This document shows positions 23,607-41,422 of a DNA stretch of 64,000 nucleotides, one piece after another (the stretch's first letter is position 1; each line of letters opens with the position of its first letter). This DNA comes from Dactylosporangium siamense (GTDB lineage: Bacteria > Actinomycetota > Actinomycetes > Mycobacteriales > Micromonosporaceae), in the NCBI RefSeq assembly GCF_016862795.1, contig NZ_BONQ01000091.1, positions 1 to 64,000 of the forward strand, written 5' to 3'. Made by a program: the position numbers and the translations under genes. The notes under the pieces are model-generated. The model saw only the letters and a program-made list of their open reading frames with translations. It was not told where the DNA came from and made no database searches.

Positions 23607-23642
23607 TGCTGTCGCCTTCCGTTCGAACGTGATGACTTTCTA

Positions 23643-23662: not shown

Positions 23663-23693
23663 TAAAGAGCTGGACACACGGTAGAGTCCTCGC

Positions 23694-24695: not shown

Positions 24696-24703
24696 CCCCG
24701 GCG
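24675..24703. terminator. bidirectional hairpin between convergent lacI and fadR-type genes
   Basis: Arms CGCCGGGG (24675-24682) and CCCCGGCG (24696-24703) form a perfect 8-bp stem with a 13-base loop spanning the lacI stop codon. The position between converging stops suggests a shared terminator. Confidence 0.5.
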
Positions 24704-24706: not shown

Positions 24707-25435
24707 CTATTTCCGGCGTCCGGGCGCGCTCACGGTGTCCTCCACGGCGGCCAGGTGCAGCTTCATCGCATTGGCCGCCCCGTTGGCGTCGCGCTGCGAG
24801 ATGGCGGCGAGGATGGCGTCGTGCTCGTCGGCCGCCTGGACCGCCCGGCCCGGGACGGCTGCCGCGGCGATGGCCTGCTCCTGCAGGACCGAGCGGAGTT
24901 CCGAGACCAGCCGGGGAAACAGCGGGTTGGCGGTCGCGGTGGCGATGGCCACGTGGAAGTCGGCGTCGATGCCGACCCGGATGGAGGGGTTCTGCTCCTC
25001 ACGGAACCGCACGAGCAGCGCGGTCATCGTCTTGAGGTCGGTCCGCGAACGGCGCTCGGCCGCGAGGGCGGCCAACGGCACCTCCAGCGTCCGGCGGACC
25101 TCGTGCAGGTCGCGGGGAAGGTACTTGCCGGTCAGCAGCTGGGACGGCGCGAACTGCGCGTCGACGAAGGTCCCCTTGCCCGCATATGAACGGGTGAGGC
25201 CGAGCGCGCTCACGCTGTGCAGCGCCTCACGGATCACCGAACGGCTGACCTCGAACGACTTGGACAGCTCGGCCTCGGAGGGCAGCCGCTGACCCACCGC
25301 GAACTCGCCCGACTCGATGAGTTCGATGAGTTGCGATCGCACGTGTTCCGCGGCGGTGCGCTGCGCGACGGGGATCACCTTCACGGCTGCCAGGTTAACA
25401 GCCTGTCGGGCAGCCGTACGGTCAGAACTAGGCAT
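24707..25435 (-). CDS. FadR-subfamily (FCD) GntR transcriptional regulator
   Basis: Regulator of 242 residues. The winged HTH is at about 28-85 (GQRLPSEAELSKSFEVSRSV core) and an FCD ligand domain at about 110-230, with the metal-binding acidic/His positions in DADFHVAIATATANP, DEHDAILAAI and KLHL. Start ATG 25435 overlaps the end of the upstream acylase gene by eight bases; an internal GTG at 25384 would give 225 residues and fits the family start equally well. It is co-transcribed with the C45 acylase and divergent from the esterase-amidohydrolase pair, and probably binds the CTGTC-N-GACAG sites. FCD regulators usually sense small carboxylates or sugar acids. Confidence 0.9.
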   Translation of the reverse strand: MPSSDRTAARQAVNLAAVKVIPVAQRTAAEHVRSQLIELIESGEFAVGQRLPSEAELSKSFEVSRSVIREALHSVSALGLTRSYAGKGTFVDAQFAPSQLLTGKYLPRDLHEVRRTLEVPLAALAAERRSRTDLKTMTALLVRFREEQNPSIRVGIDADFHVAIATATANPLFPRLVSELRSVLQEQAIAAAAVPGRAVQAADEHDAILAAISQRDANGAANAMKLHLAAVEDTVSAPGRRK

Positions 25436-26540
25436 CGATGCGCACCGGCGCTGACCAGGTCGACTCGCACGGGCTGCCGGCGGCGTACACCAGCGAGCGG
25501 GCCGAAAGGTCCATCACGATCCCCGCGACGGTGCAGGTGCGCTCGGCCACGGGCTGAGCCGCGTCCGGGTGCTGGCACACGCTGTGCGGTGCGTCCGCGT
25601 GGTCGGCGAGGGCCTCCTGCAGGCTCTCGATCGTGTGCGTGTCGTGTTGCCGCACGCGCGCGGTCAGGTGGTGCAGCCGGTTGCGGGTGTGCGCCTTGCG
25701 CTCGAGGTAGCGGTCCACCCCCGTGAGACCGTCGACCAGGAAGTGGTTGGCGTGCGTGACCGCACCGTCGACGGGAGTGATCACGCCGCACGGGCCGTCG
25801 CCCGGTCCGGTCTCCAGGTCCGCACAGAACCCGCCCACGTCCGCGATGAGATAATTCGCGGAGTTTGCCCGCGACGTGGATTGGATCCGCTGGACGGCCT
25901 CCGCACCGCTGTCGCTGTCGAGCACCGATCGCAGCAGCACGTGGTATGGGACGCCGAACCGGCCCTCGTCCCCGTCCGAGATGAGGGTGTTGGTGCACAG
26001 GCCGACCCCGCTGGAGTTGATCCCGACCTTCGCCAGCATCCCGGCCTCGACCACCGTGACGAAGTCCGGGCCGTCGTCCCGGCGCACCCGCAGCACGATC
26101 GCGGTTTCCCGGGCCCCCTCGATCCAGTCCCAGTTCTGCCCCATCAGCGCGGCGCCGGAGGTCGTGCGCTCGGGGGTCAGCGCGAACGACGTGCACTCGG
26201 TGGATGCCACCGCCCGGGCCCGTCCGGGAGCGGCGAACATGATCTCGCTGCGGGTGTTCAGGGCCAGGATGTCGGCCACCTCGACGCCGGCCCCGCGGGC
26301 GATCGCCCGGATCTCCCGCGCGGACGCCGGCGAGAAGTCCTCGATGGGACCGGCGAACCGGAGTCCATGTCGCCGCACGGTGTCCCAGTCCCACGACGCG
26401 TAGTGCCGGAACACGCCGGCATAGGTCCGCAACGCGTGCTCGATCCGGGACTTCGCGGCGAGGCCGTACTGGTATCCCCGCTCGTCCGGGTCACCCGCGA
26501 CGGCGATGACGTCGTACCCGGAGGCGACTGTCCGCGCCAT
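25428..26540 (-). CDS. C45-family autoproteolytic acyltransferase/amidohydrolase
   Basis: Ntn-hydrolase of 370 residues related to isopenicillin-N acyltransferase (peptidase family C45). The nucleophilic Cys expected to become N-terminal after self-cleavage is in ASTECTSFAL (about residue 115), followed by MGQNWDW (about 133-139), a typical C45 signature. The C-terminal half keeps ANHF and the RxRL helix. ATG 26540 is preceded by GGAGG, whereas an upstream GTG in frame would place that site inside the gene. Known relatives cleave or transfer acyl groups on amides; here the neighbouring esterase, amidohydrolase and transporter suggest hydrolysis of an acylated sugar or amide substrate. Confidence 0.85.
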   Translation of the reverse strand: MARTVASGYDVIAVAGDPDERGYQYGLAAKSRIEHALRTYAGVFRHYASWDWDTVRRHGLRFAGPIEDFSPASAREIRAIARGAGVEVADILALNTRSEIMFAAPGRARAVASTECTSFALTPERTTSGAALMGQNWDWIEGARETAIVLRVRRDDGPDFVTVVEAGMLAKVGINSSGVGLCTNTLISDGDEGRFGVPYHVLLRSVLDSDSGAEAVQRIQSTSRANSANYLIADVGGFCADLETGPGDGPCGVITPVDGAVTHANHFLVDGLTGVDRYLERKAHTRNRLHHLTARVRQHDTHTIESLQEALADHADAPHSVCQHPDAAQPVAERTCTVAGIVMDLSARSLVYAAGSPCESTWSAPVRIDA

Positions 26541-26599
26541 GCCCGCACCTCCACTCGTAGCTCCTGGCTTCACTCGCCTGGCAGGCTATCAGGTTGCAT

Positions 26600-26610
26600 G
26601 ACAAGTTGTC
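26600..26610. promoter_or_regulatory. palindrome GACAA-G-TTGTC in the divergent promoter region
   Basis: A perfect 11-bp palindrome lies between the C45 acylase and the esterase. A related half (GACAACTTATCC) is at 30371-30382 upstream of the ABC transporter. FCD-type regulators bind short inverted repeats of this kind; assignment is inference. Confidence 0.5.
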
Positions 26611-26638
26611 CCTTCCCCGGCGGGGTCGCCGTTGCTTA

Positions 26639-26667
26639 GACTCCTGTCGGACTGTCGGACAGGAGTC
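26639..26667. promoter_or_regulatory. nested inverted repeat with CTGTC-G-GACAG core before the esterase
   Basis: Arms GACTCCTGTC (26639-26648) and GACAGGAGTC (26658-26667) are exact complements. Inside them CTGTCGGACAG (26652-26662) is itself a perfect palindrome. The right arm contains AGGAG, just upstream of ATG 26673, so a bound repressor or mRNA hairpin would hide the ribosome-binding site. The CTGTC-N-GACAG core recurs at 30385-30395. Confidence 0.7.
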
Positions 26668-26672
26668 GCGCA

Positions 26673-27635
26673 ATGCGGGTGGACCTTCCCCTCGATCAAC
26701 TGGTGCGGTACGAGTACCCGCACCCCGAGCCCGGGGACTTCGACGCCTTCTGGAGCCGGACCCTGCGCGAACAGGGCGCGCATGCCCTCGATCCGCGGTT
26801 CGAGCGGGTGGACGCGCTGGTTCGGACCGTTGACGTGTACGACGTCACCTTCGGCGGATATGCCGGGGACGAGGTACGGGGCTGGCTGCTGCTGCCACAC
26901 GAGCGAACCGGTCCCCTGCCGCTGGTGGTGGAGTATCTTGGCTACGGCAGCGGACGCGGGCACCCGGTCGAGTCGCTCGCCTACGCCAGTGCCGGCTTCG
27001 CGCACGCCGTCATGGACTCCCGCGGCCAGGGCAGCGCCCTACGGGCCGGCCACACCGCGGACCCCCATGGGGCCGGCCCGTCCGCGCCGGGGTTCATGAC
27101 CCGGGACATCCTCGATCCCGAGCGGTACTACTACCGCCGCCTGTTCACCGACGCGTACCGGTTCGTCGACGCCGTGGCGACCCATGAGGCCGTGGCGGGC
27201 GACCGGATCGCGGTGACGGGACGCAGCCAGGGGGGTGCCCTGGCGCTCGTGGCAGCCGGCCTGCGGGACGATGTCCGGCTGGCCATGCCGCATGTGCCGT
27301 TCCTGTCCGCCTTCCGGCGCGCGCTAGAGGTGACGGACCACAATCCCCATGGGGAGATCGTCAGGTGGCTGGCCGCCCACCGCGGTTCGGTGGAGCGCGC
27401 CTTCGAGACCCTCGCCTATTTCGACGCCGTGTCCTTCGCCCGCCGGGCCGCCTGTCCCGGCCGGTTCTGCGTCGCCCTGCACGACGTCGTAAGCCCGCCT
27501 TCCACCGTTTTCGCTGCATACAATGCCTACGCCGGGCCCAAGGAGATGACCGTGTGGCAGTTCAACGCCCACGAGGCGGGCGGGCCCGAAGACCTCTTGC
27601 GAACCATCCATGCCGTCCGAGAGCTGGTGTCATGA
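26673..27635 (+). CDS. acetyl xylan esterase/cephalosporin-C deacetylase-like hydrolase
   Basis: Alpha/beta hydrolase of 320 residues in the AXE1/CAH family, removing acetyl or other acyl groups from sugars. The nucleophile elbow is GRSQGG (about 181-186), with the catalytic Asp in VALHDVVSPPSTVFAAYN (about 268) and the His in QFNAHEAGG (about 297). The N-terminal DFDAFWSRTL is the family's conserved opening. The length matches the roughly 320 residues of characterised hexameric enzymes. There is no signal peptide, so it acts after uptake. It overlaps the following amidohydrolase by four bases (ATGA). Expression is probably controlled at the inverted repeat overlapping its ribosome-binding site. 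Confidence 0.88.
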   Translation: MRVDLPLDQLVRYEYPHPEPGDFDAFWSRTLREQGAHALDPRFERVDALVRTVDVYDVTFGGYAGDEVRGWLLLPHERTGPLPLVVEYLGYGSGRGHPVESLAYASAGFAHAVMDSRGQGSALRAGHTADPHGAGPSAPGFMTRDILDPERYYYRRLFTDAYRFVDAVATHEAVAGDRIAVTGRSQGGALALVAAGLRDDVRLAMPHVPFLSAFRRALEVTDHNPHGEIVRWLAAHRGSVERAFETLAYFDAVSFARRAACPGRFCVALHDVVSPPSTVFAAYNAYAGPKEMTVWQFNAHEAGGPEDLLRTIHAVRELVS

Positions 27636-28579
27636 CCATCGTCGACTTTCACCACCACGCGCCACTGGCGTCCTATGTCAGCCGGTTGACGGCACTGGGC
27701 ATCCAGGCTCAGCCGGGCGCCCCGTTTCCGGTGTGGGAGCCGGCCGACTCGGTCCGGATGATGGATCGGCTGGGCATCGACCTGGCCGTGCTGTCCGTCG
27801 CCTCACCCGGGTTCTACTTCGGCGATCAGACCTTCACCACGGCCCTGTGCCGGGACACCAACGACGAGCTGACCGAAGTGGTCCGCGATGGCGACGGGCG
27901 GTTCGCGGCGGTTGCCTGCCTGCCGCTGCCCTCGGTGGATGCCGCGCTCGCGGAGGTCGAGCGGGTGTTCGACCGGCCGGAGTTCGTCGGCGTCGGCCTG
28001 CTCACCAGCTACGCCGGGTCCTACGTCGGCCATCCCAAGTTCGACGGCCTGCTGGAAACCCTGAACGACCGCGGTGCGTTCATCCACGTGCATCCGGTGC
28101 TGCCCGCATGGTGGCCCGAGGGCGAGATCCCCATCCGGCCGTCGGTCCTGGAGTATCTCTTCGACTCGACGCGCCTCATCACGAACCTGCTCCTCACCGA
28201 TGTGCCGCGCCGGTTTCCGCGAATCCGGTGGGTCTTCTCGCACTGCGGCGGCGCGATGCCGGTCGTCGCTCCGCGCATGGTGCTGGCCGAGGGCATGCCG
28301 GAGCTCGCGGCCGTCGCTGCGCAGGGCGGCGTCCTGCGCGCGCTGGCGGCGTTCCGCTATGACACCGCCCTGTCCCACACCGCCGCCGACCTCGGCGCGC
28401 TGCTGTCCTTCATCGACGACTCGCGGGTCGTGCTGGGAACGGACTTCCCGTTCTCGTCGCTCGACGAGGTGGCCGAGCGCTTCGCCCTGTTGCGCGAGTA
28501 TCTCGGCGACACGCACCGGTCGGCCGTGCTCAGCGAGAACGCCCGCGAGCTCCTCGGCGACCGGGGGCGGACGCGGTGA
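27632..28579 (+). CDS. amidohydrolase-2 family metal-dependent hydrolase (ACMSD-like)
   Basis: TIM-barrel metalloenzyme of 315 residues. The metal motif is DFHHH at about 5-9. A strand-5/6 His is in FIHVHPV (about 150-156), another in FSHCGG (about 202-207), and the catalytic Asp in VLGTDFPF (about 280-287). The closest functional relatives are 2-amino-3-carboxymuconate semialdehyde decarboxylase and related hydrolases or decarboxylases; the substrate is unknown. The start overlaps the esterase stop. The last residues coincide with the start of an inserted transposase element, so the C-terminal few residues may not be original. Confidence 0.85.
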   Translation: MTIVDFHHHAPLASYVSRLTALGIQAQPGAPFPVWEPADSVRMMDRLGIDLAVLSVASPGFYFGDQTFTTALCRDTNDELTEVVRDGDGRFAAVACLPLPSVDAALAEVERVFDRPEFVGVGLLTSYAGSYVGHPKFDGLLETLNDRGAFIHVHPVLPAWWPEGEIPIRPSVLEYLFDSTRLITNLLLTDVPRRFPRIRWVFSHCGGAMPVVAPRMVLAEGMPELAAVAAQGGVLRALAAFRYDTALSHTAADLGALLSFIDDSRVVLGTDFPFSSLDEVAERFALLREYLGDTHRSAVLSENARELLGDRGRTR

Positions 28580-30134
28580 CCCGGGCCGGCGGCTGGATGG
28601 TCAGCGCCCGGTAGATGGCCGCCTGCTCGGGGCCCAGCGGCGTGGTCTGCGTGACGGTGCCGGCCGGACCGGTGAGGGTCACCTGCGCCACCCGCCCGAG
28701 CTGCCGGTTGATGGTCCGCCAGGGTTGACCGCTGGAGTGCTCGGCGACGCGGATCAGCAGCAGGGCCAGCCACCAGATCAGCACGTGCGCGCGGATGCGC
28801 TGTCCCGAGCGGCGGGCGGCCGCTCCGGGCAGCAGCCACGCCTTGAGGTCACGGGCCTCCAGAAGATTCTTGTAGCCCAGGGCGACATCTTCGGCGCTGA
28901 TGTGCGGGTCGGAGGTGGCGATGAGGTGCTTGCCGTCGAGCCTGGCCTCGGCCCTGGCCTTCGCCAGGTCCACCTTCAGGCGCCCGTCGGGCAGCCGGAT
29001 CAGCCAGCGGCCGAGGGTGGGGTGGGCGCGGAGGGTGCACTCGGCCCGCACGCGGGCGGCTTCGTCTCGGGCGTGCTGGTCGGCGATCCGGGTCAGTTCG
29101 GTTTGGAGGTGGACGATGGCCTCGTCGCGCTCCCGGCGGTCGTGCTGTGCCTGGTCCAGATCGTGGCAGACGACGAACCGGGCGTCCTGGCCGTCGAGGC
29201 GGACCTCCCGGACGCGCAGGTCGTCGCGGACGTGCCGGTAACGGCCCGGGCGGGACAGCACCGCCGCGACGAGGCGGTTGCCGTCGGACATGCGCATTCC
29301 GGCGATGTAGTGTTCGCCGGCGCGGCGGAGGCCGGCCAGGTCGTCCGCGCCGGAGAAGGCACGCTCGACCACGGTGATGACCCGCCCCGGATGCCGGTCC
29401 AGCAGGTCGTCGCGGACCTCGGCCGGGACGGCGTCGTCACCGGCGCCACCCGGCCAGCACCAGCAGCGGACCGGGATGCCCTCCTTGGTCACGGCCAGGC
29501 CGATGACGATCTGCTCCCCGTCGTCGCAGGCGAACTGGATGGTGTCGAAGAACAACGGGTCGAGCCGGTCGGTCCCGGCGAGGGACAGCGACTCCTGCAC
29601 CCGCGCCTGCGTGTCCGCGCCCACGAGCAGATCCATCGCCCGGCGGACGTGTTCATCGTCCATCGTGGATAGTCCCGGCACGGCGGCCTCCTCGCGCACC
29701 CATTCCGCGGCCGGCAGCCCGCTCATCGGGGCCACCGCCCGGTGGGCGACCAGCGCGAACAACGCCCGTTCCAGGCCGGCGGTGAACCGCCGCGCGCCGG
29801 TGGCCGCACGCACCGCCGCGCCCACGTCGAGGCGGCGCCACAGCGCGTCGAGCAGCCAGGTGGCTCCGATGGTCCGGACGTCGATGACCTCCAGCGACGC
29901 GGCCCGGGCGGCCGCACCCGCCGGCGCGGCTCCGGCCGGCTCGTCGCCGCCGAAGTGCCTGCCGATCGACGCGGCCAGCCGCTGCAGCCCGGCCACGTCA
30001 ACCTGGTCCTCCCGGCCCAGATTCATCAGCACGTCCGGCTTGATCTGCCCGTCCACCCGCCGGTTGTGGGCCAGCGCGACATAGCGCACCACCGCGCCGT
30101 CGGCGTTGGTCCGCGAGGTGAATCGCAGGAACAT
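28530..30134 (-). mobile_element. IS1634-like transposase; element ends not resolved
   Basis: The 534-residue product has the layout of IS1634-type DDE transposases: LFFDTIQFACDD (first Asp, about 208), a second acidic strand VITVVERAFSG (about 257) where the usual Asp is replaced by Glu, and late GYKNLLEARDLKAWL followed by RIRAHVLIWWLALLL (Glu and flanking helices, about 440-475). ATG 30134 is chosen; an upstream TTG at 30146 is possible. The 3' end runs 50 bp into the amidohydrolase frame and the last dozen codons are Arg/Gly-rich read-through, so the element border lies at about 28560-28590. Matching terminal repeats could not be found by eye. Confidence 0.75.
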
Positions 30135-30146
30135 GCCTACGACCAA

Positions 30147-30475
30147 ACCATTCTTGACCTGCTAACACAAGGTCAAGATACTGAGTCGTGTTACTACATG
30201 TTCATCCTTCCGAGCCGTTCGCGACCGGTCGATACCGCTGCTGACCAGCGGCGATCCGAAACCGATCACTCCCGCGTGTGTACCAAACTGCGGGCCCCGG
30301 ACGCAAGGAAACTTCGTAACGAACCGAGCGGAGGCCCTTGCGATCCACCTCACCACGGTGCACCCTGAGGGACAACTTATCCGGCTGTCTGACAGCCGGG
30401 CAGGTGGACAGGTCCGGAGGCACCGCGTACCCCGCGCTTTGGCAGGTCTTCGGTCCCCAGCAGAGGAGAGCAGCG
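30147..30475. other. intergenic region between transposase and ABC transporter
   Basis: Contains a perfect 8-bp inverted repeat, CTTGACCT (30153-30160) and AGGTCAAG (30170-30177), just outside the transposase start, possibly part of the element's end or its promoter. GC content is visibly lower here (for example TACTACATGTTC). The distal part holds the palindromic operator at 30381-30399 and an AGAGGAGAG ribosome-binding site at about 30462-30470. No coding sequence is apparent. Confidence 0.6.
30381..30399. promoter_or_regulatory. 19-bp palindrome with CTGTC-T-GACAG core before the transporter
   Basis: Arms CCGGCTGTC and GACAGCCGG flank a single T. The inner 11 bp (30385-30395) match the CTGTC-N-GACAG core found before the esterase gene 3.7 kb away. 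This suggests one regulator, most likely the FadR-type protein, governs both units. Confidence 0.7.
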
Positions 30476-31777
30476 ATGCGTGCAAGGAACTTATGGCGCG
30501 GCCGTGTCGCCGTGGCCATCGGCCTGGCGGGGGCCCTGGCCCTCGCGGCCTGTGGTGGAGCAAGCGACTCGGGCGCGAACAGCTCGGGCGAGATCAAGGG
30601 AACCATTGACTTCTGGATGGGCGACCCCATCGGGGATGCCCAGCAGCCAATCATGCAGAAACTGGCGGACGACTACGCCGCCGCACATCCGGGGACCAAG
30701 GTGAACCTCCGGTTCCTCGGCAAGGACGCACACCAGACGTACCTGACCTCGATCGCCGGTGGCAGCGTTCCCTGTGTCGCGCTCATCGGCAACACCTGGA
30801 CCCCCGAATTCGCGGCGCTCAACGCCCTCGAGGTCTACGCGAACGACCCCAAGACGCTGCAGGGCACCTACGTGCCCGGCATGATCGAGTCGACCATCTT
30901 CAAGGGCAAGTCCTACGCCGTTCCCTACGACACCGGTGTCCGCGCCCTGATCTACCGCAAGGACATGCTCGAGGCGATCGGCAAGACCGCGGCCCCCGCC
31001 ACCTGGCAGGAGCTGCGCGAGGACGCCCTGGCCATTCAGGCCAAGAACCAGGGCGTCAACGGGTTCGGCATCATCGGCGGCGCGCATTGGTACTACCTGC
31101 CGCTGATCTGGAACTGGGGCGGGGAGATCGCCAAGCAGAGCGGTGACAAGTGGGTCTCCGAGGCCGGCTCGACGCAGTCCGTCCAGGCGTTCCAGTTCTA
31201 CTCCGACCTGCTGACCAAGGACCGCCTGTCGCCCGCCGGCGCCTCGGCCTGGACCGCGGCCGACGTCGACAAGTCCATGGGCCTGGGCCAGACGGCGATG
31301 ATGGTCGGCGGATCGTGGGACCTGCGGACCATTCTCAAGCAGAGCCCCGATCTGGAGGGCAAGCTGGGCACGGCCGTCCTGCCCAAGGGGCCGGGCGGGA
31401 ACAACGACACGTTCGCCGGCGGCAGCAACCTCGCCGTGTTCCGCGAGTGCAACAACAAGGCGGTGGCGAACGACTTCGTGAAGTTCATGATGACCAAGGA
31501 AAACCTCGTGCCGGTCACGTCGAACCTGGGCCTGCTCCCGGCGACGAACGACGCGCTGGCGCAGGAGAAGGCCACCGGGTCGTTCTCCGCCCCGCTGTTC
31601 AAGGCGTACGCCGAACAGGCCGACCACACCCGTTCCATTCCTCCGGTGGCCAGCTGGGGCAAGGTCGAGGGGGCCAACTCCATCGTGAACGCCATGCAAT
31701 CGATCATGAGCGGCAAGAAGACGGCCGACGTCGCCATGAAGGAACTCGCGGACCAGGTGAACCAGGCAATTGGCTAA
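30476..31777 (+). CDS. ABC transporter substrate-binding lipoprotein (CUT1 type)
   Basis: Extracellular binding protein of 433 residues. The lipoprotein signal ends at lipobox LAAC (about 22-25). The mature protein opens with GTIDFWMGDPIGDAQQP, typical of family-1 carbohydrate-binding proteins, and includes the conserved aromatic-rich NWGGEI and MMVGGSWDL segments. ATG 30476 follows AGAGGAG. It starts an operon with two permeases; no ATPase is present. The ligand is unknown, but the shared operator with the acylase/esterase unit suggests an acylated or amide-linked sugar. Confidence 0.92.
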   Translation: MRARNLWRGRVAVAIGLAGALALAACGGASDSGANSSGEIKGTIDFWMGDPIGDAQQPIMQKLADDYAAAHPGTKVNLRFLGKDAHQTYLTSIAGGSVPCVALIGNTWTPEFAALNALEVYANDPKTLQGTYVPGMIESTIFKGKSYAVPYDTGVRALIYRKDMLEAIGKTAAPATWQELREDALAIQAKNQGVNGFGIIGGAHWYYLPLIWNWGGEIAKQSGDKWVSEAGSTQSVQAFQFYSDLLTKDRLSPAGASAWTAADVDKSMGLGQTAMMVGGSWDLRTILKQSPDLEGKLGTAVLPKGPGGNNDTFAGGSNLAVFRECNNKAVANDFVKFMMTKENLVPVTSNLGLLPATNDALAQEKATGSFSAPLFKAYAEQADHTRSIPPVASWGKVEGANSIVNAMQSIMSGKKTADVAMKELADQVNQAIG

Positions 31778-31781
31778 GACT

Positions 31782-32741
31782 GTGAAGACCACGATCCGTC
31801 GCGCGGCGTCCTCGGCCATCCCGAGGGCGCTGCGCGAGCGGCGCTTGCTGCAGGGGCAGCAGGGCTTCGAGAGACGATTCCTGCCGTGGGCCTTCCTGGC
31901 GCCGCTGCTCGCGGTGATCGTCGGCGTGGTCGGATATCCTGTGGCGCGCACGATCTGGCTGTCGTTCTTCGACGGTGAGTACCTGCAGAGCGGACCGTTC
32001 GTCGGGCTGCAGAACTACCGCGACATCTTCGCCGACCCGTACTACACCGGCGCGCTGGTGCGCACGACCCTGTTCGCGGCAGCGGTGGTCGTCACCACGA
32101 TCCTGCTGAGTCTGGCCATCGCCCTGGTCCTTGACGCCGCACCCCGCGCGGCCAGGGTGCTCAGCGTCATCGTGCTGCTCCCCTGGGCCATGCCGCGGGT
32201 CGCGTCGGGCATCGTCTGGAAGTGGATGTTCGACGACCAGTACGGCGTGGTCAACTGGCTGCTGGTCAACTGGTTCGGCCTCGACTCCTTCAACGGCTAC
32301 TCCTGGTTCAGCACGGGCACGCCGGCCATGGTCGCCATCACCGTCGCTGTCGTCTGGCACTCGGTCCCCTTCGTGGCGGTCTCCCTGTTCGCCGGGTTGC
32401 GCGGCACCCACGGTGAAGTGGTGGAGGCGGCCCGGGTCGACGGTGCCAGCGCCTGGCAGATCCTGCGACGGATCCGGCTGCCCATGATCCGTCCCCTGCT
32501 GGTCGTGATGACCACGATCTCGACCATCTGGGCGTATCAGTCCTTCGACCACTTCCTGGTGATGACCACACCGCCTGGCGGGCCGGACCACTCGACCGAG
32601 GTGTTGTCCCTGCTGACCTGGCTCGAGGCGTTCGCCCAGCTCGACCAGGGCTCCGCCGCGGCCATGGCCGTGGTCTTGTTCCTCATGCTGGCCGCGGTGA
32701 GCGTGCTGTACGTCCGGCTGAACCGAGAGGACGTTCGATGA
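31782..32741 (+). CDS. ABC transporter permease (MalF type)
   Basis: Inner-membrane permease of 319 residues with six helices. The EAA motif is in VVEAARVDGASAWQILRRIR (about 216-235). GTG 31782 is chosen; an in-frame TTG at 31770, overlapping the binding-protein stop, is an alternative. The N-terminal 30 residues are basic and cytoplasmic. The stop overlaps the next gene's ATG (ATGA). Confidence 0.88.
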   Translation: MKTTIRRAASSAIPRALRERRLLQGQQGFERRFLPWAFLAPLLAVIVGVVGYPVARTIWLSFFDGEYLQSGPFVGLQNYRDIFADPYYTGALVRTTLFAAAVVVTTILLSLAIALVLDAAPRAARVLSVIVLLPWAMPRVASGIVWKWMFDDQYGVVNWLLVNWFGLDSFNGYSWFSTGTPAMVAITVAVVWHSVPFVAVSLFAGLRGTHGEVVEAARVDGASAWQILRRIRLPMIRPLLVVMTTISTIWAYQSFDHFLVMTTPPGGPDHSTEVLSLLTWLEAFAQLDQGSAAAMAVVLFLMLAAVSVLYVRLNREDVR

Positions 32742-33562
32742 CGTCGCTGTTGCGCCGTGGGGCGCTGTTCCTGCTCGTTGCCGTGATCGTGGTGAGCAGC
32801 CTGTTCCCGTTCTTCTGGATGCTGGTCACGTCGGTCAAGCCCGACAGCGAGCTGTTCACCCGCACCCCGCGGTTCATCGTCACGTCGCCGACCGTGGAGC
32901 GGTACACGCACCTGCTCGACGGCAACATCCCCACCCAGTTCCGCAACTCCCTCATCGTCGCCGTGGCGACGACGGTATTGACCGGCCTGATCGCTCTGCT
33001 GGCGGGCTACGCTCTGGCCCGCTACCGGCTGCGGACCCGGCACATCCTCACGGTCGTCATCCTCGTCACGCAGTTGCTGCCGCAGACCATCCTCGTCATC
33101 CCGTTGTTCACGCTGTTCCGCAACGCCGGCCTGCTCAACACGTTTCAGGGGCTGACCCTGAGCCACCTGGCCCTGACCGTGGGCCTGTGCACGTTCATGC
33201 TGCGCTCGTTCGTGGTGGAGATCCCGTTCGAGCTCGAAGAGGCCGCTCTGGTCGACGGGGCGAGCCGGCTGCGCGCCGTCTGGTCGATCGTGTTTCCGCT
33301 GGCGTGGCCGGGGCTCGCCGCGAGCTCCGTCTACGCGTTCATCACGTCGTGGAACGAGCTCATGTTCTCGGCGACGTACATGCAGCGGCCCGCGATCGAA
33401 ACACTCCCCGTCGCCCTGCAGCAGTACTTCTCCAGCTACTACACCGACTGGGGCGGGGTGATGGCGGCGAGCGTGATCTTCACGATCCCCGTGGTGATCT
33501 TCTTCCTCATCGTGCAGAAGCGGCTGATGCAGGGAATGGCATCGGGCGCGATGAAGGGCTAG
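32738..33562 (+). CDS. ABC transporter permease (MalG type)
   Basis: Second permease (274 residues, six helices) of the importer. The EAA loop is ELEEAALVDGASRLRAVWSI (about 165-184), and the C-terminus QKRLMQGMASGAMKG is typical of MalG homologues. It is translationally coupled to the first permease through ATGA. It ends 27 bp before the convergent GntR regulator. ATP hydrolysis must be supplied by an ATPase encoded elsewhere. Confidence 0.93.
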   Translation: MTSLLRRGALFLLVAVIVVSSLFPFFWMLVTSVKPDSELFTRTPRFIVTSPTVERYTHLLDGNIPTQFRNSLIVAVATTVLTGLIALLAGYALARYRLRTRHILTVVILVTQLLPQTILVIPLFTLFRNAGLLNTFQGLTLSHLALTVGLCTFMLRSFVVEIPFELEEAALVDGASRLRAVWSIVFPLAWPGLAASSVYAFITSWNELMFSATYMQRPAIETLPVALQQYFSSYYTDWGGVMAASVIFTIPVVIFFLIVQKRLMQGMASGAMKG

Positions 33563-33589
33563 ACAGAAGAGGGGATAGAAGATGAAGGG

Positions 33590-34345
33590 TCAGAAGCGGA
33601 ACAGCGACGCCTGGAACCGGTAGGAGTCCCCGCGGTACAGCTGGCGGCCCACGTCAAAGCACTGATCGTGCTGGTCGAAGGTCTTCTGGTAGCCGACCAG
33701 CACCGGATCGCCGGGCGCGAGGCCGAGCACCTTGGCCTCGCGCGACTTGACCGCCTCCGCCGCGAGCTCGTAGTCGCACCGGCTGGCCGCGATGTCATAC
33801 CGGTCGCGCAGCACGTCGTAGAGCGACTGCCCGGTGAAGTCGACGTCCTCGATGCCGGGCACCCGGGCGGCGTCGAGGCACGACTGGTCGACGCTGAGCG
33901 GCGAGCCGTCCAGGAACCTGACCCGGCGCAGGTCGACCACCGGCTGGGCGGCGTCGATGCCCAGGACCTCCGCCTCGGCCAGGGTGGCCGGGCGGACCAC
34001 GGCCCGCATGACCCGGGACGTCGCCTCCATGCCGCGCTCGCGCGCGACCTCGCTGAGCCCGCGCAGCCGGTTGGGCTCGTGCACGAGCCGGTTCTCCGCG
34101 ACGAACCAGCCGCGCTGCGGCGACGGCACGATCCGGCCGGCATCGGCCAGGGCGCTGAGCACCTTCCGCAGCGTCACCCGGCTGACCCCGAGATCGGCGG
34201 CCAGGGTGCGCTCACCGGGCAGCCGGGTGCCGGCCGGGAACTGCCCCACGGTCAGCGCTTCCTGGAGGGCACGGTAGGCCTCGACCGCGTTGTTGCGGCC
34301 CTCCACCCGGGCCGGGGAGACCTTGAGGTCGAGTGCCTTCGCCAC
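33590..34345 (-). CDS. HutC-subfamily GntR regulator
   Basis: Transcriptional regulator of 251 residues. The winged HTH is at about 22-85 (GTRLPGERTLAADLGVSRVT). The UTRA/HutC ligand domain (about 95-245) has the features DVDFTGQSLYDVLRDRY and VLGLAPGDPVLVGYQKTF. GTG 34345 is selected because GAGGAG lies eight bases upstream; in-frame codons further up (to 34381) lack this. It is divergent from the cupin gene, with an ACTGGTC/GACCAGT palindrome between, which resembles known HutC/DasR-type operators. The ligand is probably a phosphorylated sugar or sugar acid from the downstream pathway. Confidence 0.92.
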   Translation of the reverse strand: MAKALDLKVSPARVEGRNNAVEAYRALQEALTVGQFPAGTRLPGERTLAADLGVSRVTLRKVLSALADAGRIVPSPQRGWFVAENRLVHEPNRLRGLSEVARERGMEATSRVMRAVVRPATLAEAEVLGIDAAQPVVDLRRVRFLDGSPLSVDQSCLDAARVPGIEDVDFTGQSLYDVLRDRYDIAASRCDYELAAEAVKSREAKVLGLAPGDPVLVGYQKTFDQHDQCFDVGRQLYRGDSYRFQASLFRF

Positions 34346-34418
34346 GGCTGCCACTCCTCGGTTGGTTCGTGTGCGCTGCATCCTAACGCCCTTGACACGC
34401 ATGACCCGTTCTCTCCAG

Positions 34419-34441
34419 ACTGGTCTACTATACAGACCAGT
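34419..34441. promoter_or_regulatory. HutC-type operator 1 (cupin promoter)
   Basis: Arms ACTGGTCT (34419-34426) and AGACCAGT (34434-34441) are exact complements separated by 7 bp. A TTGACA hexamer at 34392-34397 lies upstream. The arms match the half-sites known for HutC/DasR-type regulators, and an identically spaced site precedes the DJ-1 gene. Confidence 0.85.
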
Positions 34442-34459
34442 TCGGCACGAGAGGGCGAC

Positions 34460-35308
34460 ATGACAGACGAGAGCATCCGCGAGCCGCAGGTCCTTCGATA
34501 CCGGGACCTCGAGCGGCGCACGTGGGGCGACGAGACCACCGGACGGCTGTGCGACTGGTTCTACGCCGACGACGCGACGATGAACCTCAACATCGTCGGC
34601 ATGCCGCCGAACGGGTCCGCGATCTCCTCGCCCGAGCACCCCACCGTGTTCGGCGCCGACGAGCTCTTCTACGTGCTCGAGGGGCGCATGGTCCAGAGCA
34701 ACCCGGTCACCGGCGAGGTCTTCGTCGTCAACCCGGGTGAGGCCATCTTCTTCCGCAAGGACACCTGGCACTACCAGTGGAACCACAGCAACGTGCAGCT
34801 GCGCATGTTGGAGTTCTTCCAGCCCGCCCCCAAGGCCGGCACGGGCGGCGCCTACGCGCGGGCCCAACCCCCGCTGGACGGCCCGCCGAAGCAGGGCCAG
34901 GACGAGCTGCTCGGCAACTGGCCGATGGCCCGTGACACTCCGCGCGAGCGGACCACCTGGATGATCCGGGAGGCCGACATCCTCTGGCGGATGGAGGGCA
35001 CCACGCGGGGCCGCGAGATCCTCGTGGGCATCCTGGCCAGCACCGAGCACCTCACCGGCGGGAAGATGTCGTTCCTGGGCGGCCAGCGCAGCGACGTCTA
35101 CAGCCACGGCGCCGACAAGGTGATCTTCGTGGAGTCGGGCAACCTGCACGTCGAGCTGACCGGCACGAAGAAGTGGGTCGAGCTGGACGCCTGGGACGGT
35201 GTGCGGATCCCGGCCGGCACGCCGCACTCGTTCTACAACATGAGCCACGAACCCGCCACGTGCCTCTTCTCGGTGGCCGGCGAGTACCGGCCGGGCTGCG
35301 TTGCCTGA
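34460..35308 (+). CDS. double-domain cupin protein
   Basis: Bicupin of 282 residues. The first cupin (about 35-125) has DELFYVLEGRM and PGEAIFFRKDTWHYQWNHS; the second (about 190-280) has HGADKVIFVESGNLHVEL and IPAGTPHSFYN. Several His and Glu metal-ligand positions are present in each half. Bicupins include sugar isomerases, dioxygenases and decarboxylases, so the reaction cannot be fixed. ATG 34460 lies 18 bp after the operator. It overlaps the ROK kinase by eight bases and opens the HutC-controlled operon. Confidence 0.85.
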   Translation: MTDESIREPQVLRYRDLERRTWGDETTGRLCDWFYADDATMNLNIVGMPPNGSAISSPEHPTVFGADELFYVLEGRMVQSNPVTGEVFVVNPGEAIFFRKDTWHYQWNHSNVQLRMLEFFQPAPKAGTGGAYARAQPPLDGPPKQGQDELLGNWPMARDTPRERTTWMIREADILWRMEGTTRGREILVGILASTEHLTGGKMSFLGGQRSDVYSHGADKVIFVESGNLHVELTGTKKWVELDAWDGVRIPAGTPHSFYNMSHEPATCLFSVAGEYRPGCVA

Positions 35309-36266
35309 CATCGCGGTCGGCGGCGGTCACGACACCATCGTGGCCGCCGTCGACTGGGGTGGGACCTGGATCCGGGCGGCCGCCGTGTCCGGCGACCGGA
35401 TCGTGCGCAAGGACCGCCGCGCCAAGCCGGCGAGCCTGGCCGAGCAGTACGTCACCGTCGCCGAGATGGTCCTGCACGCCACCGCGGACCTGGCCCAGCC
35501 TCCGGCGGCGGTGGGCGTGGGACTCGCGGGCGTGGTGCAGGACGGCATCGTCGGCACCGCCGTCAACCTCGGTTTCACCGACGGGACCGACGTCGCGGCG
35601 GCACTGCGCCCGCACCTGCCGCTGCCCACCTATCTGCTCAACGACGCGCAGGCCACCGCGCTGGGTGTGGCGGCGCGCTGGCCGCACGGCACGACCGCCG
35701 TCCTGACCATGGGCACCGGCATCGGCGGAGCGGTGATCAGGGACGGCTCGCTGGACTCCGGGCTCGGCGGCGCCGGCGACTTCGGCCATGTGGTGGTCGA
35801 CGTGTACGGCCCCCGCTGCCCCTGCGGCGGCACCGGCTGCCTCGAGGCGCTGGTCTCCGGACGGGCCCTGGCCGAAGCCGCGGGCGCGCTCGCGGAGGAC
35901 GGGTTGAGTCCCCTGCTCGCCGCCCGCGCACAACTCGGACGCGCCCTGCACGCCGGAGACCTGCAGGACGCCGCCGAGAACGGCGACGGCCAGGCGGCCG
36001 GCGTGCTCGACCGGTCCGCGTTCGCCCTGTCCGCCGGCCTGCGCACGATCGTCGCGACGCACGATCCGCAGCGCATCGTCCTGGCCGGGGCGCCGCTGGC
36101 CCCGGACACGTGGTTCGGCCGGGCGGTGCGAACGCACTGGGATCGCGCCCGGCCGCGCTGGGCCCGCACGGAGCTGCACCACGTGGCGGAGGACGAGGAC
36201 GCGGCACTGCGTGGAGCCGCGTCCTACGCGCTCGGCAGGCTCGCCGCGGCCCGGTCCGGCTCCTGA
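35301..36266 (+). CDS. ROK-family sugar kinase
   Basis: Probable carbohydrate kinase of 321 residues. The ATP-phosphate loop is AVDWGGTWIRAA (about 16-27), the catalytic Asp is in LLNDAQATALG (about 112-122), and the phosphate-2 segment is TMGTGIGGAVI (about 135-145). The zinc-binding ROK signature is intact: GHVVVDVYGPRCPCGGTGC (about 158-176). TTG 35301 overlaps the cupin stop. Without an N-terminal HTH it is an enzyme rather than a repressor. It likely phosphorylates the sugar imported by the nearby transporter. Confidence 0.9.
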   Translation: MPDIAVGGGHDTIVAAVDWGGTWIRAAAVSGDRIVRKDRRAKPASLAEQYVTVAEMVLHATADLAQPPAAVGVGLAGVVQDGIVGTAVNLGFTDGTDVAAALRPHLPLPTYLLNDAQATALGVAARWPHGTTAVLTMGTGIGGAVIRDGSLDSGLGGAGDFGHVVVDVYGPRCPCGGTGCLEALVSGRALAEAAGALAEDGLSPLLAARAQLGRALHAGDLQDAAENGDGQAAGVLDRSAFALSAGLRTIVATHDPQRIVLAGAPLAPDTWFGRAVRTHWDRARPRWARTELHHVAEDEDAALRGAASYALGRLAAARSGS

Positions 36267-36303
36267 CGACCTTCCCTGCCCATCCTTCGTGTGACACACT
36301 CCA

Positions 36304-36326
36304 ACTGGTCCTTCTTGTAGACCAGT
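36304..36326. promoter_or_regulatory. HutC-type operator 2 (DJ-1 gene promoter)
   Basis: ACTGGTC (36304-36310) and GACCAGT (36320-36326) repeat the arms of the first site with the same overall spacing (23 bp end to end). It lies in the 86-bp gap before the DJ-1-like gene at 36353, showing that the second half of the cluster has its own HutC-controlled promoter. Confidence 0.85.
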
Positions 36327-36352
36327 TTTCCTGAGAGGCCAGGTCACTCCTC

Positions 36353-36781
36353 ATGAGTTTGTCCAACCGTTCGATCGTCGTCTTCGCCTTCGACGGCTAC
36401 CAGGAGCTCGAGTTCTGGTATCCGGTCCTGCGCGCTCGGGAGGAGGGGGCGGAGGTCAAGGTCGTCGCTCCGGGGGACGGTCCGTGCGAGAGCCACCTGG
36501 GCTACCCGATCCTCGGGGACACGGTCCCGGACGAGGTCGTGTCCGAGGACGTGGACGCACTGGTGGTGCCGGGGACGGTGACCGGTCGCCCGGCGGTCAG
36601 CGACGAGCAGGTGGCGCTCCTGCGCCGGTTGCGCGCCGCGGAGGTGCCCATCTTCGCCAGCGGCTCCGGCGCCCACCTGGTCCGGGAGCTCGTCCTCGAC
36701 GTCGATCCCGACCGCGTCGCGGTGGACGCCGACGCCCTTCCCTCCCTGTTCACCCGGCTGCGGACCGAGCTGGCCGGCTGA
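36353..36781 (+). CDS. DJ-1/PfpI-family protein lacking the nucleophilic cysteine
   Basis: Short DJ-1 superfamily member (142 residues; family usually about 170-220). The N-terminal FDGYQELEFWYPVL (about 13-26) carries the conserved Glu. The nucleophile-elbow position reads IFASGSGAHL (about 102-111), with no Cys where paralogues have AICHAG. The C-terminal sheet is also shortened. It is probably not catalytic through the usual Cys, and might act as a partner for its full-length paralogue at 37868. First gene after the second HutC operator. Confidence 0.82.
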   Translation: MSLSNRSIVVFAFDGYQELEFWYPVLRAREEGAEVKVVAPGDGPCESHLGYPILGDTVPDEVVSEDVDALVVPGTVTGRPAVSDEQVALLRRLRAAEVPIFASGSGAHLVRELVLDVDPDRVAVDADALPSLFTRLRTELAG

Positions 36782-36815
36782 GCCTCCGCTCGCCGACGTC
36801 GAAGGAGCGTTCGTC

Positions 36816-37856
36816 ATGCAGATCTTCCGTACCGTGCTCGGTGACGTCCCGGCCGAGGAGTCGGGCCGCATCCTCACCCACGAGCACCTGCTCTACGGCT
36901 ACCCCGGGGCCGAGCTGGACCACCGGACCGCGTTCGACCACCCCGCCGCCGTCGAGCGGGTCAGTCGCCAGGTCATCGACGGCATGATTCCCAACGGGTA
37001 CAACACCCTCATCGACATGACCCCGGCCGAGGTCGGCCGCCACCCGCAGTTCATGGTGGACGTCGCCAAGCGCACCGGCATCAACGTCGTGGCGATCACC
37101 GGGTTCTTCCCGGAGCGTATGGGCGTGCCGTACTACTGGCGCCGGCAGACCATCGAGGAGCTCACCGAGTTCTTCGTGCGCGACCTCACCGAGGGCATGG
37201 TGTTCGCGTGGCAGCAGACGCCGTACAAGGCCGGCGCCATCAAGATCGCCACCGGTCAGGAGAGCGTCTTCCCCAAGCCGAGCCCGGTGGGCGCGTACGG
37301 TCGCCACGTCCACGAGGTGGAGGACCGCCTGATCCGGGCGGCCGGCAAGGCGGCCATGGCAACCGGCTGCGGCATCAACACCCACATCGACCCGATGGAC
37401 TTCGAGGTCACGAACCCCGGGCGCGAGCAGCTCGAGATCCTCGACGAGGTCGGCATGGACCTGTCCAAGGTGATCATCGGCCACGCCTTCGTGCCACCGC
37501 AGGTCAACATGATGCGCGAGATCCTCAAGATGGGCGCGAACGTCCAGCTGGATCACATCGGCATCCCCTGGCGCGTCGGCAGCGCCGAGGAGCTGGACGA
37601 GGCGATGGCCAATGCCCTCATCGAGCTCATCGAGGACGGCTACCTGGATCGCATCGTCCTGTCGTTCGACCGGTGGTTCTTCAACCCCCGGGCGACGGTC
37701 ACCGAGTCCGACCCGCAGCTGGAGAACGAGAAGGTCAACCTCAACTACATGTTCACCAGCTGGGTGCCGCGCCTGAAGGCCAAGGGCGTCACCGACGCAC
37801 AGCTCGACCAGATCATGATTCACAACCCCCGACGCATCCTGTCGATCGCGGTCTGA
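36816..37856 (+). CDS. phosphotriesterase-family metal-dependent hydrolase (lactonase-like)
   Basis: TIM-barrel hydrolase of 346 residues with the complete binuclear-metal set of the phosphotriesterase family: HEH in ILTHEHLLYG (about 20-25), bridging Lys in GAIKIATG (about 146), His in INTHIDPM (about 188), His in VIIGHAFV (about 217) and the catalytic Asp in VLSFDRWFF (about 284). Natural members in sugar clusters are usually lactonases or sugar-phosphate/ester hydrolases rather than organophosphatases. ATG 36816 follows GAAGGAG. It lies between two DJ-1 paralogues in one operon. Confidence 0.9.
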   Translation: MQIFRTVLGDVPAEESGRILTHEHLLYGYPGAELDHRTAFDHPAAVERVSRQVIDGMIPNGYNTLIDMTPAEVGRHPQFMVDVAKRTGINVVAITGFFPERMGVPYYWRRQTIEELTEFFVRDLTEGMVFAWQQTPYKAGAIKIATGQESVFPKPSPVGAYGRHVHEVEDRLIRAAGKAAMATGCGINTHIDPMDFEVTNPGREQLEILDEVGMDLSKVIIGHAFVPPQVNMMREILKMGANVQLDHIGIPWRVGSAEELDEAMANALIELIEDGYLDRIVLSFDRWFFNPRATVTESDPQLENEKVNLNYMFTSWVPRLKAKGVTDAQLDQIMIHNPRRILSIAV

Positions 37857-37867
37857 CGGAGGACTGA

Positions 37868-38533
37868 ATGGAACTGCAGAAGGCTCGAGTGGCCGTCCTG
37901 GCCGAGAACCTGTACCAGGAGCTGGAGCTGTGGTACCCGGTCCTGCGACTGCGTGAGGCCGGTGTACAGGTCACGATCGTGGGCTCCCGCGCGGGCGAGG
38001 TGTACGCCAGCAAGCTGGGCTACCCGGCGGTGGCCGAGGTCGGCATCGCGGATGTGTCGCCCGACGACTTCGACGCGGTGATCGTGCCCGGCGGCTTCTC
38101 GCCCGAGTACCTGCGCCGGGAACCGCGCTTCGTCGAGTTCGTCCGCGCCCTGAACGACCGGGCCGCCCCGGTCGCGGCGATCTGCCACGCGGGGTGGCTG
38201 CTGGCGACGGCGGACATCGTGAAGGGGCGGGCCGTCACGTCGGTCCCCGTCATCAAGGACGACGTGATCCACGCCGGCGGCGACTGGCGCAACGAGGCCG
38301 TCGTGGTCGACGGCAACCTCATCACCTCGCAGCTGCCCAACGACCTGCCCCAGTTCCTCACCCGGATCCTCGACGCCCTGGCCGACAGCGACGCGAAGGG
38401 TGGTGAGGTCCCGGCCGTCGTCCGTGATGCCACGCCGAGCTCGGCGGTCTACCGCGCGGCCGCCGTGGTGAAGAACCGCGCGGCCGGGCCGGGATCGGCC
38501 AACTACCGGGCCTACGCGGTGGCCGGCGAGTGA
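37868..38533 (+). CDS. DJ-1/PfpI-family protein with intact Cys elbow
   Basis: DJ-1 superfamily protein of 221 residues. The N-terminal NLYQELELWYPVLRLREAGV (about 12-31) contains the active-site Glu. The nucleophile elbow AAICHAGWLLA (about 101-111) retains Cys and the following His. The C-terminal region (about 170-221) extends past the usual family end. Possible activities include glyoxalase-like hydration, amidase or isomerase chemistry; context suggests sugar-derivative processing. It overlaps the SDR by four bases and is 11 bp after the phosphotriesterase-fold gene. Its N-terminus is clearly homologous to the protein at 36353. Confidence 0.87.
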   Translation: MELQKARVAVLAENLYQELELWYPVLRLREAGVQVTIVGSRAGEVYASKLGYPAVAEVGIADVSPDDFDAVIVPGGFSPEYLRREPRFVEFVRALNDRAAPVAAICHAGWLLATADIVKGRAVTSVPVIKDDVIHAGGDWRNEAVVVDGNLITSQLPNDLPQFLTRILDALADSDAKGGEVPAVVRDATPSSAVYRAAAVVKNRAAGPGSANYRAYAVAGE

Positions 38534-39270
38534 CCGTCGCGCTGGTCGCCGGCGGCGCCACCGGCATCGGACGGGCAACCGTCCGGGCCCTGCGCGCCGC
38601 CGGGACCGACGTCTACCTGGCCGACGTCAACGACTCGGCGGCCCGGGAGGTGGCCGCGCAGGAGGCCCCGGGGCGGATCGTCGTGGGGCACCACGACCTG
38701 GCCGACCGGCACGCGCCGAAGGCCGCGGTGGACGCCGCCCTGGAGGCGTTCGAGCGGCTCGACCACGTCGTCGTGACCGCCGGTCTGCACGTCGTCGCTC
38801 CCCTGGAGGCCTTCGCGTTCGAGGCGTGGGAAGCGACCATGGCGGTGAACGTGCGGGCGCCCTACCTGCTGGCTCAGGCGGCCGTGGCGGCGCTGGCCGA
38901 CACCCGCGGCAGCATCGTGTTCACGGGCTCGACCGCGGCCCACCGCGGCAGCCCCGGCACGTTTGCCTATGCCGCGTCCAAGGGCGCGCTCATCAGCCTG
39001 ACCCGATCATTGGCGGTCGAGCTCGCGGGCCGTGGAGTTCGCGTCAACAGCGTGTGCCCTGGGTGGATCGACACCCCGTTCAACGATCCGTACTGGAGTG
39101 CCCAGGCCGACACCGAGGCCGCCCTGAACGGCATCGTCACGCGGGTGCCGCTGGGCCGGCAGGGCGATCCGGAGGAGGTGGCCGCCCTCATCGTGTACCT
39201 GCTCGGTCCGGGCTCCGCCTATCTGACCGGACAATCCGTGGTCATCGATGGTGGTCTGCTCTCCGCCTGA
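38530..39270 (+). CDS. short-chain dehydrogenase/reductase
   Basis: Classical SDR of 246 residues. The cofactor motif GGATGIGRA (about 8-16), the acidic ADVND after beta-2 (about 36-40, suggesting NAD preference), the Ser of VFTGSTAAH (about 136) and YAASK (about 150-154) are all present. Family end motif VVIDGGLLSA closes the protein. The GTG start overlaps the DJ-1 stop. Last gene of the HutC-controlled cluster; probably oxidises a sugar or sugar-acid hydroxyl. Confidence 0.92.
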   Translation: MTVALVAGGATGIGRATVRALRAAGTDVYLADVNDSAAREVAAQEAPGRIVVGHHDLADRHAPKAAVDAALEAFERLDHVVVTAGLHVVAPLEAFAFEAWEATMAVNVRAPYLLAQAAVAALADTRGSIVFTGSTAAHRGSPGTFAYAASKGALISLTRSLAVELAGRGVRVNSVCPGWIDTPFNDPYWSAQADTEAALNGIVTRVPLGRQGDPEEVAALIVYLLGPGSAYLTGQSVVIDGGLLSA

Positions 39271-39331
39271 GCTACGCCAGGCGGGAGACCGGGAGGTGCG
39301 ACGTCACCTTCCGGTGGAAACCCCTGGCTGG

Positions 39332-41419: not shown

Positions 41420-41422
41420 GGA

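Follow-up and report, generated by a model that had tools for sequence, protein, structure and literature searches.

A recurrent gene module in Dactylosporangium siamense as a candidate catabolic regulon for an acyl-decorated, carbohydrate-derived compound

The 64,000 nucleotides of Dactylosporangium siamense DNA analysed here (hereafter, the window) comprise bases 1-64000 of the 100,174-base contig NZ_BONQ01000091.1, from a genome of 12.7 Mb. At positions 24707-39270 they encode acyl hydrolases, metal-dependent hydrolases, a sugar importer, a sugar kinase and a pair of DJ-1 proteins, which raises the question of whether these genes constitute one system and what such a system might do. An initial annotation had proposed an undescribed catabolic system for an acylated or amide-linked sugar under two regulators. 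The genes are real and present where that annotation had put them, and the block is a bounded, recurrent module, a single system that is rare, occurring in 21 genomes from four families of soil actinobacteria; two conserved operator-like sites link its separate operons. Its function is tentatively read as catabolism of a small acyl-decorated compound derived from a carbohydrate. The features of the block are as follows.

24707-25435, minus strand: GntR regulator of the FadR type (GntR and FCD domains; 44-63% identity in other genera where called)
25428-26573, minus strand: C45, autoproteolytic N-terminal nucleophile (Ntn) amidase/acyltransferase (NF040521, 248.5 bits, cut-off 85), overlapping GntR
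26653-26661, no strand: operator A copy TGTCGGACA (consensus TGTCTGACA), in the divergent C45/AXE1 promoter
26673-27635, plus strand: AXE1/CE7 esterase, AXE1 (PF05448, E 7e-96; 1vlq, E 9.8e-94; GxSQGG, D and HE motifs)
27632-28579, plus strand: ACMSD-like Amidohydro_2 metal hydrolase/decarboxylase, AMH (PF04909), in ATGA overlap with AXE1
28530-30146, minus strand: IS1634-type transposase (NF033559, 187.5 bits, cut-off 100)
30386-30394, no strand: operator A, exact, upstream of the SBP gene
30476-31777, plus strand: sugar-type ABC solute-binding lipoprotein, SBP (SBP_bac_1, PF01547/PF13416; 42-65% in other genera)
31770-32741, plus strand: ABC permease 1, P1 (PF00528)
32738-33562, plus strand: ABC permease 2, P2 (PF00528)
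34419-34441, no strand: operator B, ACTGGT-N11-ACCAGT, upstream of the bicupin gene
34460-35308, plus strand: bicupin (two Cupin_2 stretches)
35301-36266, plus strand: ROK sugar kinase, NanK-like (PF00480; ATP-site and CxCGxxGC zinc motifs)
36304-36326, no strand: operator B, second exact genomic copy, upstream of DJa
36353-36781, plus strand: DJa, short DJ-1/PfpI protein lacking the catalytic Cys-His (PF01965)
36816-37856, plus strand: phosphotriesterase-fold binuclear metal hydrolase, lactonase-like, PTE (PF02126)
37868-38533, plus strand: DJb, DJ-1/PfpI protein with intact nucleophile elbow AICHAGW (TIGR01382, 162 bits, cut-off 139)
38530-39270, plus strand: short-chain dehydrogenase/reductase (SDR), sugar 1-dehydrogenase-like, overlapping DJb (PF13561)

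Reading frames were picked by third-position GC; AMH was missed by that filter and was read by translation. Every named gene is an intact frame with high third-position GC (0.91 for AMH, 0.96 for the bicupin) and a family match, and all of the components listed initially (the C45 and AXE1 enzymes, the ACMSD-like hydrolase, the importer, the bicupin, the ROK kinase, the DJ-1 pair, PTE and SDR) were recovered. The bicupin, which had been given a start at 33668, begins near 34460, the longer frame being an artefact. The genes lie in five short operons, most with overlapping genes: C45-GntR on the minus strand, and AXE1-AMH, SBP-P1-P2, bicupin-ROK and DJa-PTE-DJb-SDR on the plus strand. No ABC ATPase gene lies within the block; a shared ATPase of the MsiK type is usual in actinobacteria. 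An IS1634-type element that the initial annotation had not mentioned lies inside the block and splits AMH (itself intact) from SBP, and a transposase of this type fills the same gap in L023, L024 and L026, the other three of the four Dactylosporangium loci. It is 68-87% conserved among these loci, below its neighbours, and a search for terminal inverted repeats detected none. The transposase is probably an insertion and not a functional part, perhaps an old one that has become fixed.

Relatives were sought with PTE as the probe, and its presence in all 21 genomes is therefore by choice. Carriers were found in 4/7 genomes of the genus, 6/230 of its own family, 10/150 of family f31, 1/22 of family f34 and 4/24 of family f2; a draw from the class gave 3/394 (own genome included), and a draw of 396 from the phylum gave the own genome only. 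The 21 genomes thus belong to four families (f1, with two genera, f2, f31 and f34). By per-gene identity thresholds that we set, and with the window counted among the 21 neighbourhoods, PTE is accompanied by DJb in 21, SDR in 20, AXE1 in 19, C45 in 18 and AMH in 18. DJa was called by script in 19, and the remaining two were seen on inspection; GntR was called by script in 17, with one more (G963) found separately. A carbohydrate-type SBP adjoins the PTE core in 17 and shares operator B with it in two more. The three neighbourhoods without C45 and AMH (G147, G153 and G107) come from fragmented f2 assemblies, on contigs of 9.9, 4.4 and 15.3 kb; G147 is labelled a metagenome-assembled genome, the assemblies of G153 and G107 consist of hundreds of contigs, and C45 was sought on the cluster contigs only. 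The conserved clustering outside this strain that had been set beforehand as a test was thus found. As a control, two distant plasmid homologues of PTE (H1 and H7, at L003 and L004), the two examined among the best 20 of 188 matching records, had no C45, DJ-1 or AMH neighbour, and such homologues were set aside as relatives of the system.

The three other Dactylosporangium genomes have GntR (88-96% identical) at one end of the block and SDR at the other, in agreement with the ends proposed initially, and their flanks differ: frames of at least 100 aa neighbouring the block in the window (9000-24700 and 39280-54000) have no match in any of the three pieces on the GntR side, nor in two of the three on the SDR side, the third having one partial match of 35%. 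From the shared ends and unrelated flanks, 24707-39270 is the unit. The PTE tree places Dactylosporangium with G147, G107 and G153, of family f2 (support 0.997), and apart from the second genus of its family, which suggests that the cluster has spread by horizontal transfer.

Two palindromic sequences connect the operons. Operator A (TGTCTGACA, with at most one mismatch) occurs in 16/17 C45-divergent regions, 15 of which have both the TGT and the ACA ends; the ends of these regions were set by hand, and the expectation, from the rate over 539 kb of cluster loci, is about 0.014 per region, a figure that is not a probability, the loci being related. Operator A also precedes SBP in all four Dactylosporangium loci (at most one mismatch, exact in the window) and lies by GntR in G049. 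Operator B (ACTGGT-N11-ACCAGT) has two exact copies in the 12.7 Mb genome, one before the bicupin and one before DJa. It precedes DJa in all seven genomes of the Dactylosporangium/f2 clade (the window; L023, L024 and L026 in the genus; L025, L106 and L107 in G147, G153 and G107), and the bicupin in 4/5 (window, L023, L024, L026). The fifth, in G147, has a permease tail ending 72 bp before bicupin-ROK that matches the end of the G153 importer permease at 12/14 residues, so importer and bicupin are joined there. The other exact operator B of G107 and of G153 precedes an SBP_bac_1 importer gene, and a GntR-UTRA gene (L138, 3040-3876) adjoins this site in G107. In that clade, operator B therefore appears to be common to importer, bicupin-ROK and DJa-PTE-DJb-SDR, though their arrangement varies.

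The control by two regulators that had been proposed is plausible, since there are two different operators; only one regulator gene, GntR (24707-25435), was found in the range. The LacI gene at 23694-24695 was considered as the second regulator and rejected: it faces GntR convergently and adjoins an arabinofuranosidase gene, and neither has a match in the GntR-side flanks (11-15 kb pieces) of the three other Dactylosporangium genomes. GntR, of the FCD class, likely senses a carboxylate; FadR-type regulators bind carboxylic acids, mostly at GT-N3-AC sites, according to a passage of PMC4494728. The half-sites of operator B match those of the DasR site, given in part of PMC4398421 as A(G/C)TGGTCTAGACCA(G/C)T, spaced 7 bp wider, and DasR and NagR are described in part of PMC4918961 as binding sugar phosphates. 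Operator B is not an ordinary dre site, for in the cluster copies its half-sites are separated by 11 bp where a dre site has 4; the pattern TGGTCT-N6-AGACCA, the spacing of which was mis-set, had no match in the window. Judging by the class of the regulators, the signals may be an acid, for FCD, and a sugar phosphate, for UTRA.

C45, AXE1, AMH, PTE, DJb, ROK and SDR all have metal-ligand or catalytic motifs. C45 exceeds the NF040521 cut-off and has the N-terminal nucleophile Cys, which is kept in 18/18 aligned rows; its nearest solved structure is the acyltransferase 2x1c. AXE1 combines PF05448 with the Ser-Asp-His motifs of CE7 esterases. No obvious signal peptide was seen by eye on C45 or AXE1, so deacylation would be cytosolic. 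AMH belongs to PF04909, with the uncharacterised 2f6k as the nearest structure and ACMSD next, and is not close to ACMSD itself (best ACMSD chain, E 2.9e-16; no NCBIfam match). PTE has PF02126 and the family's HxH, Lys, His, His and Asp ligands (H22, H24, K143, H190, H223 and D285, aligned with two solved PTE-family chains), and falls below the phospho-furanose lactonase model NF045706 (83.2 bits, cut-off 630). The ROK kinase has PF00480 and the ATP and zinc motifs, and falls below the NanK equivalog NF047821 (111.9 bits, cut-off 450). The best NCBIfam match of SDR is 'glucose 1-dehydrogenase' (197.9 bits, below the cut-off of 215).

The two DJ-1 proteins are unequal. DJb is a PfpI/DJ-1 protein with its Cys-His kept in 21/21 rows; in DJa these residues are absent from 20/20 rows and from the DJa of locus L108 in G049 (the L108 row of the DJa set proved to be its DJb and was dropped from the count), and DJa thus does not have the elbow expected of an active enzyme. 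DJa is a degenerate partner of DJb, and its loss of Cys-His beside this constant companion suggests that the two form a heteromer.

The lower part of the system comes in two forms. Bicupin and ROK are found in 5/21 genomes, all in the Dactylosporangium/f2 PTE clade, and 13/21 have instead an HbpS-like protein, two Zn-dehydrogenases and a PF01791 (DhnA-type) aldolase; an FGGY kinase above the 35% threshold is present in 11 of those 13, and one at 32.5% in G1161. None of the 21 has both. Bicupin and ROK are thus no constant component but one of two lower branches that alternate. The bicupin is 92-98% identical in the Dactylosporangium contigs, and a search of the genomes gave full-length orthologues in 2/14 matches (own genome and G147), the 12 weak partial ones being dropped. 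A two-pattern scan of 84,980 genomes found bicupins at 36 or more loci. Of 37 bicupin loci, 30 have a ROK-like kinase in the fetched 10 kb (for 12 second-type kinases at alphaproteobacterial loci this call was made by eye and not with Pfam) and 14 have a gene resembling a Glucosamine_iso-family protein (Pfam run on one). The bicupin was rejected as a guide to the whole system: alphaproteobacterial loci have other sugar genes and no C45, PTE or DJ-1 match in the fetched stretch. Those loci (L002, L021, L027-L051) carry ROK-like kinases, and L002, L021 and others also encode a glucosamine-isomerase/6-phosphogluconolactonase-family protein, a xylose-isomerase-like TIM barrel, Gfo/Idh and TetR; loci of the L002/L021 type apparently represent a separate sugar pathway.

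Several further features were noted in and around the loci. In the G373 cluster, two same-start copies of a 468-aa gene, transposase-like by eye, lie between PTE and DJa (L061, 10997-14081), and, also in G373, a sialidase-like BNR protein (Pfam BNR_2) adjoins an SBP-P1-P2 importer that is 42-49% identical (L064, 3442-5310). Outside the block, the window has a neighbouring unit of SBP, Alpha-L-AF_C arabinofuranosidase and LacI (20781-24695), gas vesicle genes (GvpL/F and gas vesicle protein, 39852-42898) directly after the block, and a second sugar region with two Gfo/Idh dehydrogenases, an MGH1-like glycoside hydrolase, a ROK-type regulator and GH1 (44985-54343).

What the system does is, quite possibly, to catabolize a small acyl-decorated, carbohydrate-derived compound as an inducible regulon; the presence, conservation and shared sites of its genes are observed, and each reaction of the following scheme is inferred. 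SBP-P1-P2, with an ATPase from elsewhere, would import the compound intact; cytosolic C45 would remove an acyl group in amide linkage, and AXE1 would cleave an ester; SDR would oxidize the sugar to a lactone that PTE would open; and DJb, in a heteromer with inactive DJa, would process the product together with AMH. ROK would phosphorylate the released sugar, which the bicupin may isomerize or condition; in relatives, the dehydrogenase and DhnA-aldolase set, mostly with the FGGY kinase, would take the place of bicupin and ROK in leading into central metabolism. Operator A is probably the binding site of GntR (FCD), with an acid intermediate as effector, and operator B probably that of an unlinked GntR of the HutC/UTRA type, with a sugar phosphate as effector. 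The most economical guess at the substrate is an N-acyl amino sugar derivative, which would fit the NanK-like ROK, the DasR-like half-sites and the glucosamine-isomerase-family neighbours of the alphaproteobacterial bicupins, none of which is proof. The acylated-sugar reading of the initial annotation is thereby partly supported: there is one system, with a sugar-type importer, a kinase, an SDR, two acyl hydrolases and a lactonase-type PTE, although bicupin and ROK are not fixed in it and one genome, G049, has the core without sugar genes.

Several observations weigh against this interpretation. Operator A, tried as an over-represented word, is not enriched over the window (14 matches with at most two mismatches, against 16.2 expected); the case for it is one of position, as it is for operator B. 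Operator B with at most one mismatch has 22 copies in the genome (exact ones included), fewer than its reversed control (37); exact copies are present in 11/17 further genomes (control 0-2), among them one or two in some genomes with the other branch or without the cluster; it is absent from the 136 bp before the G147 bicupin; and its regulator was not found in the own genome, in which no search aimed at a UTRA regulator was made. No bicupin match came from G107 or G153, although both belong to the Dactylosporangium/f2 PTE clade; their contigs, however, end inside the importer. By our reading of the alignment, each barrel of the Dactylosporangium and G147 bicupins has lost one likely metal ligand, a His in the first and a Glu in the second, both retained by most members from Alphaproteobacteria. 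The PTE, C45, AMH and DJ-1 families each include enzymes that act on non-sugar compounds. Finally, G049 keeps GntR, C45, the DJ-1 pair, PTE and AMH beside an importer of the amino-acid type (SBP_bac_3), and no AXE1, SDR, ROK, FGGY, bicupin or sugar importer was found in its 40 kb.

Since G049 has the core without sugar genes, the substrate of the core may be a non-sugar compound, an amide or a lactone. It is unlikely, though it deserves weight, that GntR, C45, DJa, PTE, DJb and AMH break such a compound, for example an N-acyl amino-acid derivative or a peptide-like lactone, and that a glycosyl part, present in some substrates only, is dealt with by the sugar importer, kinase, aldolase or bicupin. 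The G049 locus (L108, 2987-14642) fits this, having a second PTE-family gene, an M19 dipeptidase and Amidohydro_1 alongside its SBP_bac_3 importer, as does the attachment of two alternative sugar branches to one core; and PTE-type lactonases act on acyl-homoserine lactones, according to a passage of PMC5120315. However, SDR and AXE1 are in 20 and 19 of the 21 neighbourhoods, a carbohydrate-type SBP adjoins or shares operator B in the numbers given above, and G049, the most distant member (PTE 43%), may have changed its substrate. More broadly, it is conceivable, if somewhat doubtful, that the conserved unit of C45, PTE, an active/inactive DJ-1 heteromer and the ACMSD-like enzyme is an undescribed pathway on an amide-linked compound with two interchangeable exits; if true, DJ-1/PfpI proteins would gain a defined metabolic reaction and a pseudoenzyme partner.

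Degradation of sugar-amino conjugates (Amadori products or opine-like compounds), with the DJ-1 pair and C45 parting sugar from amine, would account for a core that goes with sugar-type importers and, in G049, with an amino-acid-type one, and a deglycase role has been attributed to DJ-1 proteins, although it is debated. This is improbable: no fructosamine kinase or opine-type name is among the family matches of the window block, and AXE1 would be left without a role. Still harder to credit is the detoxification or use of an acylated antibiotic, which the likeness of C45 to penicillin acyltransferase and of AXE1 to cephalosporin C deacetylase might suggest, 2x1c and 1vlq being their nearest solved structures; those names reflect the first-characterized relatives, CE7 enzymes act widely on acetylated sugars, and the presence of an importer, kinases and aldolases suggests that the compound serves as food. 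That the genes are unrelated and adjacent by accident, in a region that has further sugar genes next to the block (at 20781-23606, for instance, an arabinofuranosidase and an SBP), is already contradicted by recurrence across families in rearranged order, shared operators and common block ends, and hardly merits belief.

What PfpI/DJ-1 proteins, bacterial C45 amidases and most PTE-like proteins catalyse is little known or a matter of dispute. Here the C45, PTE and DJ-1 families come together in a small regulon for which operators and effector classes are predicted, so that one screen for inducers could identify the substrate and, with it, a natural reaction for each family. That an active DJ-1 protein is always paired with an inactive one is unusual and directly testable.

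The initial annotation had not recognized the combination as a known pathway, and word searches of the open-access literature likewise gave no characterized gene set of this make-up; a catabolic regulon is a known kind of system, and we could not match the make-up of this one to any described. The N-acetylglucosamine (nag/das) regulons under DasR and NagR share with it a ROK kinase of the NanK kind, a carbohydrate ABC importer, half-sites like ACTGGTCT/AGACCAGT and, in G107, a UTRA regulator beside the site, but the half-sites of the block are 7 bp further apart than in the 16-bp site with abutting half-sites, and the block has no nagA or nagB match; to our knowledge, C45, PTE, the DJ-1 pair, AMH and AXE1 are foreign to those regulons. 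Oxidative sugar pathways run from dehydrogenase through lactonase to aldonate, and a sugar 1-dehydrogenase-like SDR and a PTE-type lactonase are likewise together in one operon of the block, which differs in having no dehydratase or 2-keto-3-deoxygluconate-type aldolase and in its extra amidase, esterase and DJ-1 pair. The FGGY kinase and PF01791 aldolase of the relatives (LsrF model, 104 bits, cut-off 297) recall the exit by FGGY kinase and DhnA-type aldolase that occurs in the Lsr system of autoinducer-2, whereas the window has bicupin and ROK in their place. All six metal ligands of PTE align with those of phosphotriesterase-like lactonases (GkaP and others), from which it differs in its identity of about 30% at best among the plasmid matches listed, and in forming a conserved subfamily of its own with DJ-1 partners. 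DJb, finally, exceeds the cut-off for PfpI and shares the Cys-His elbow with PfpI/DJ-1 proteins, and is set apart from them by its constant companion, the Cys-His-less DJa.

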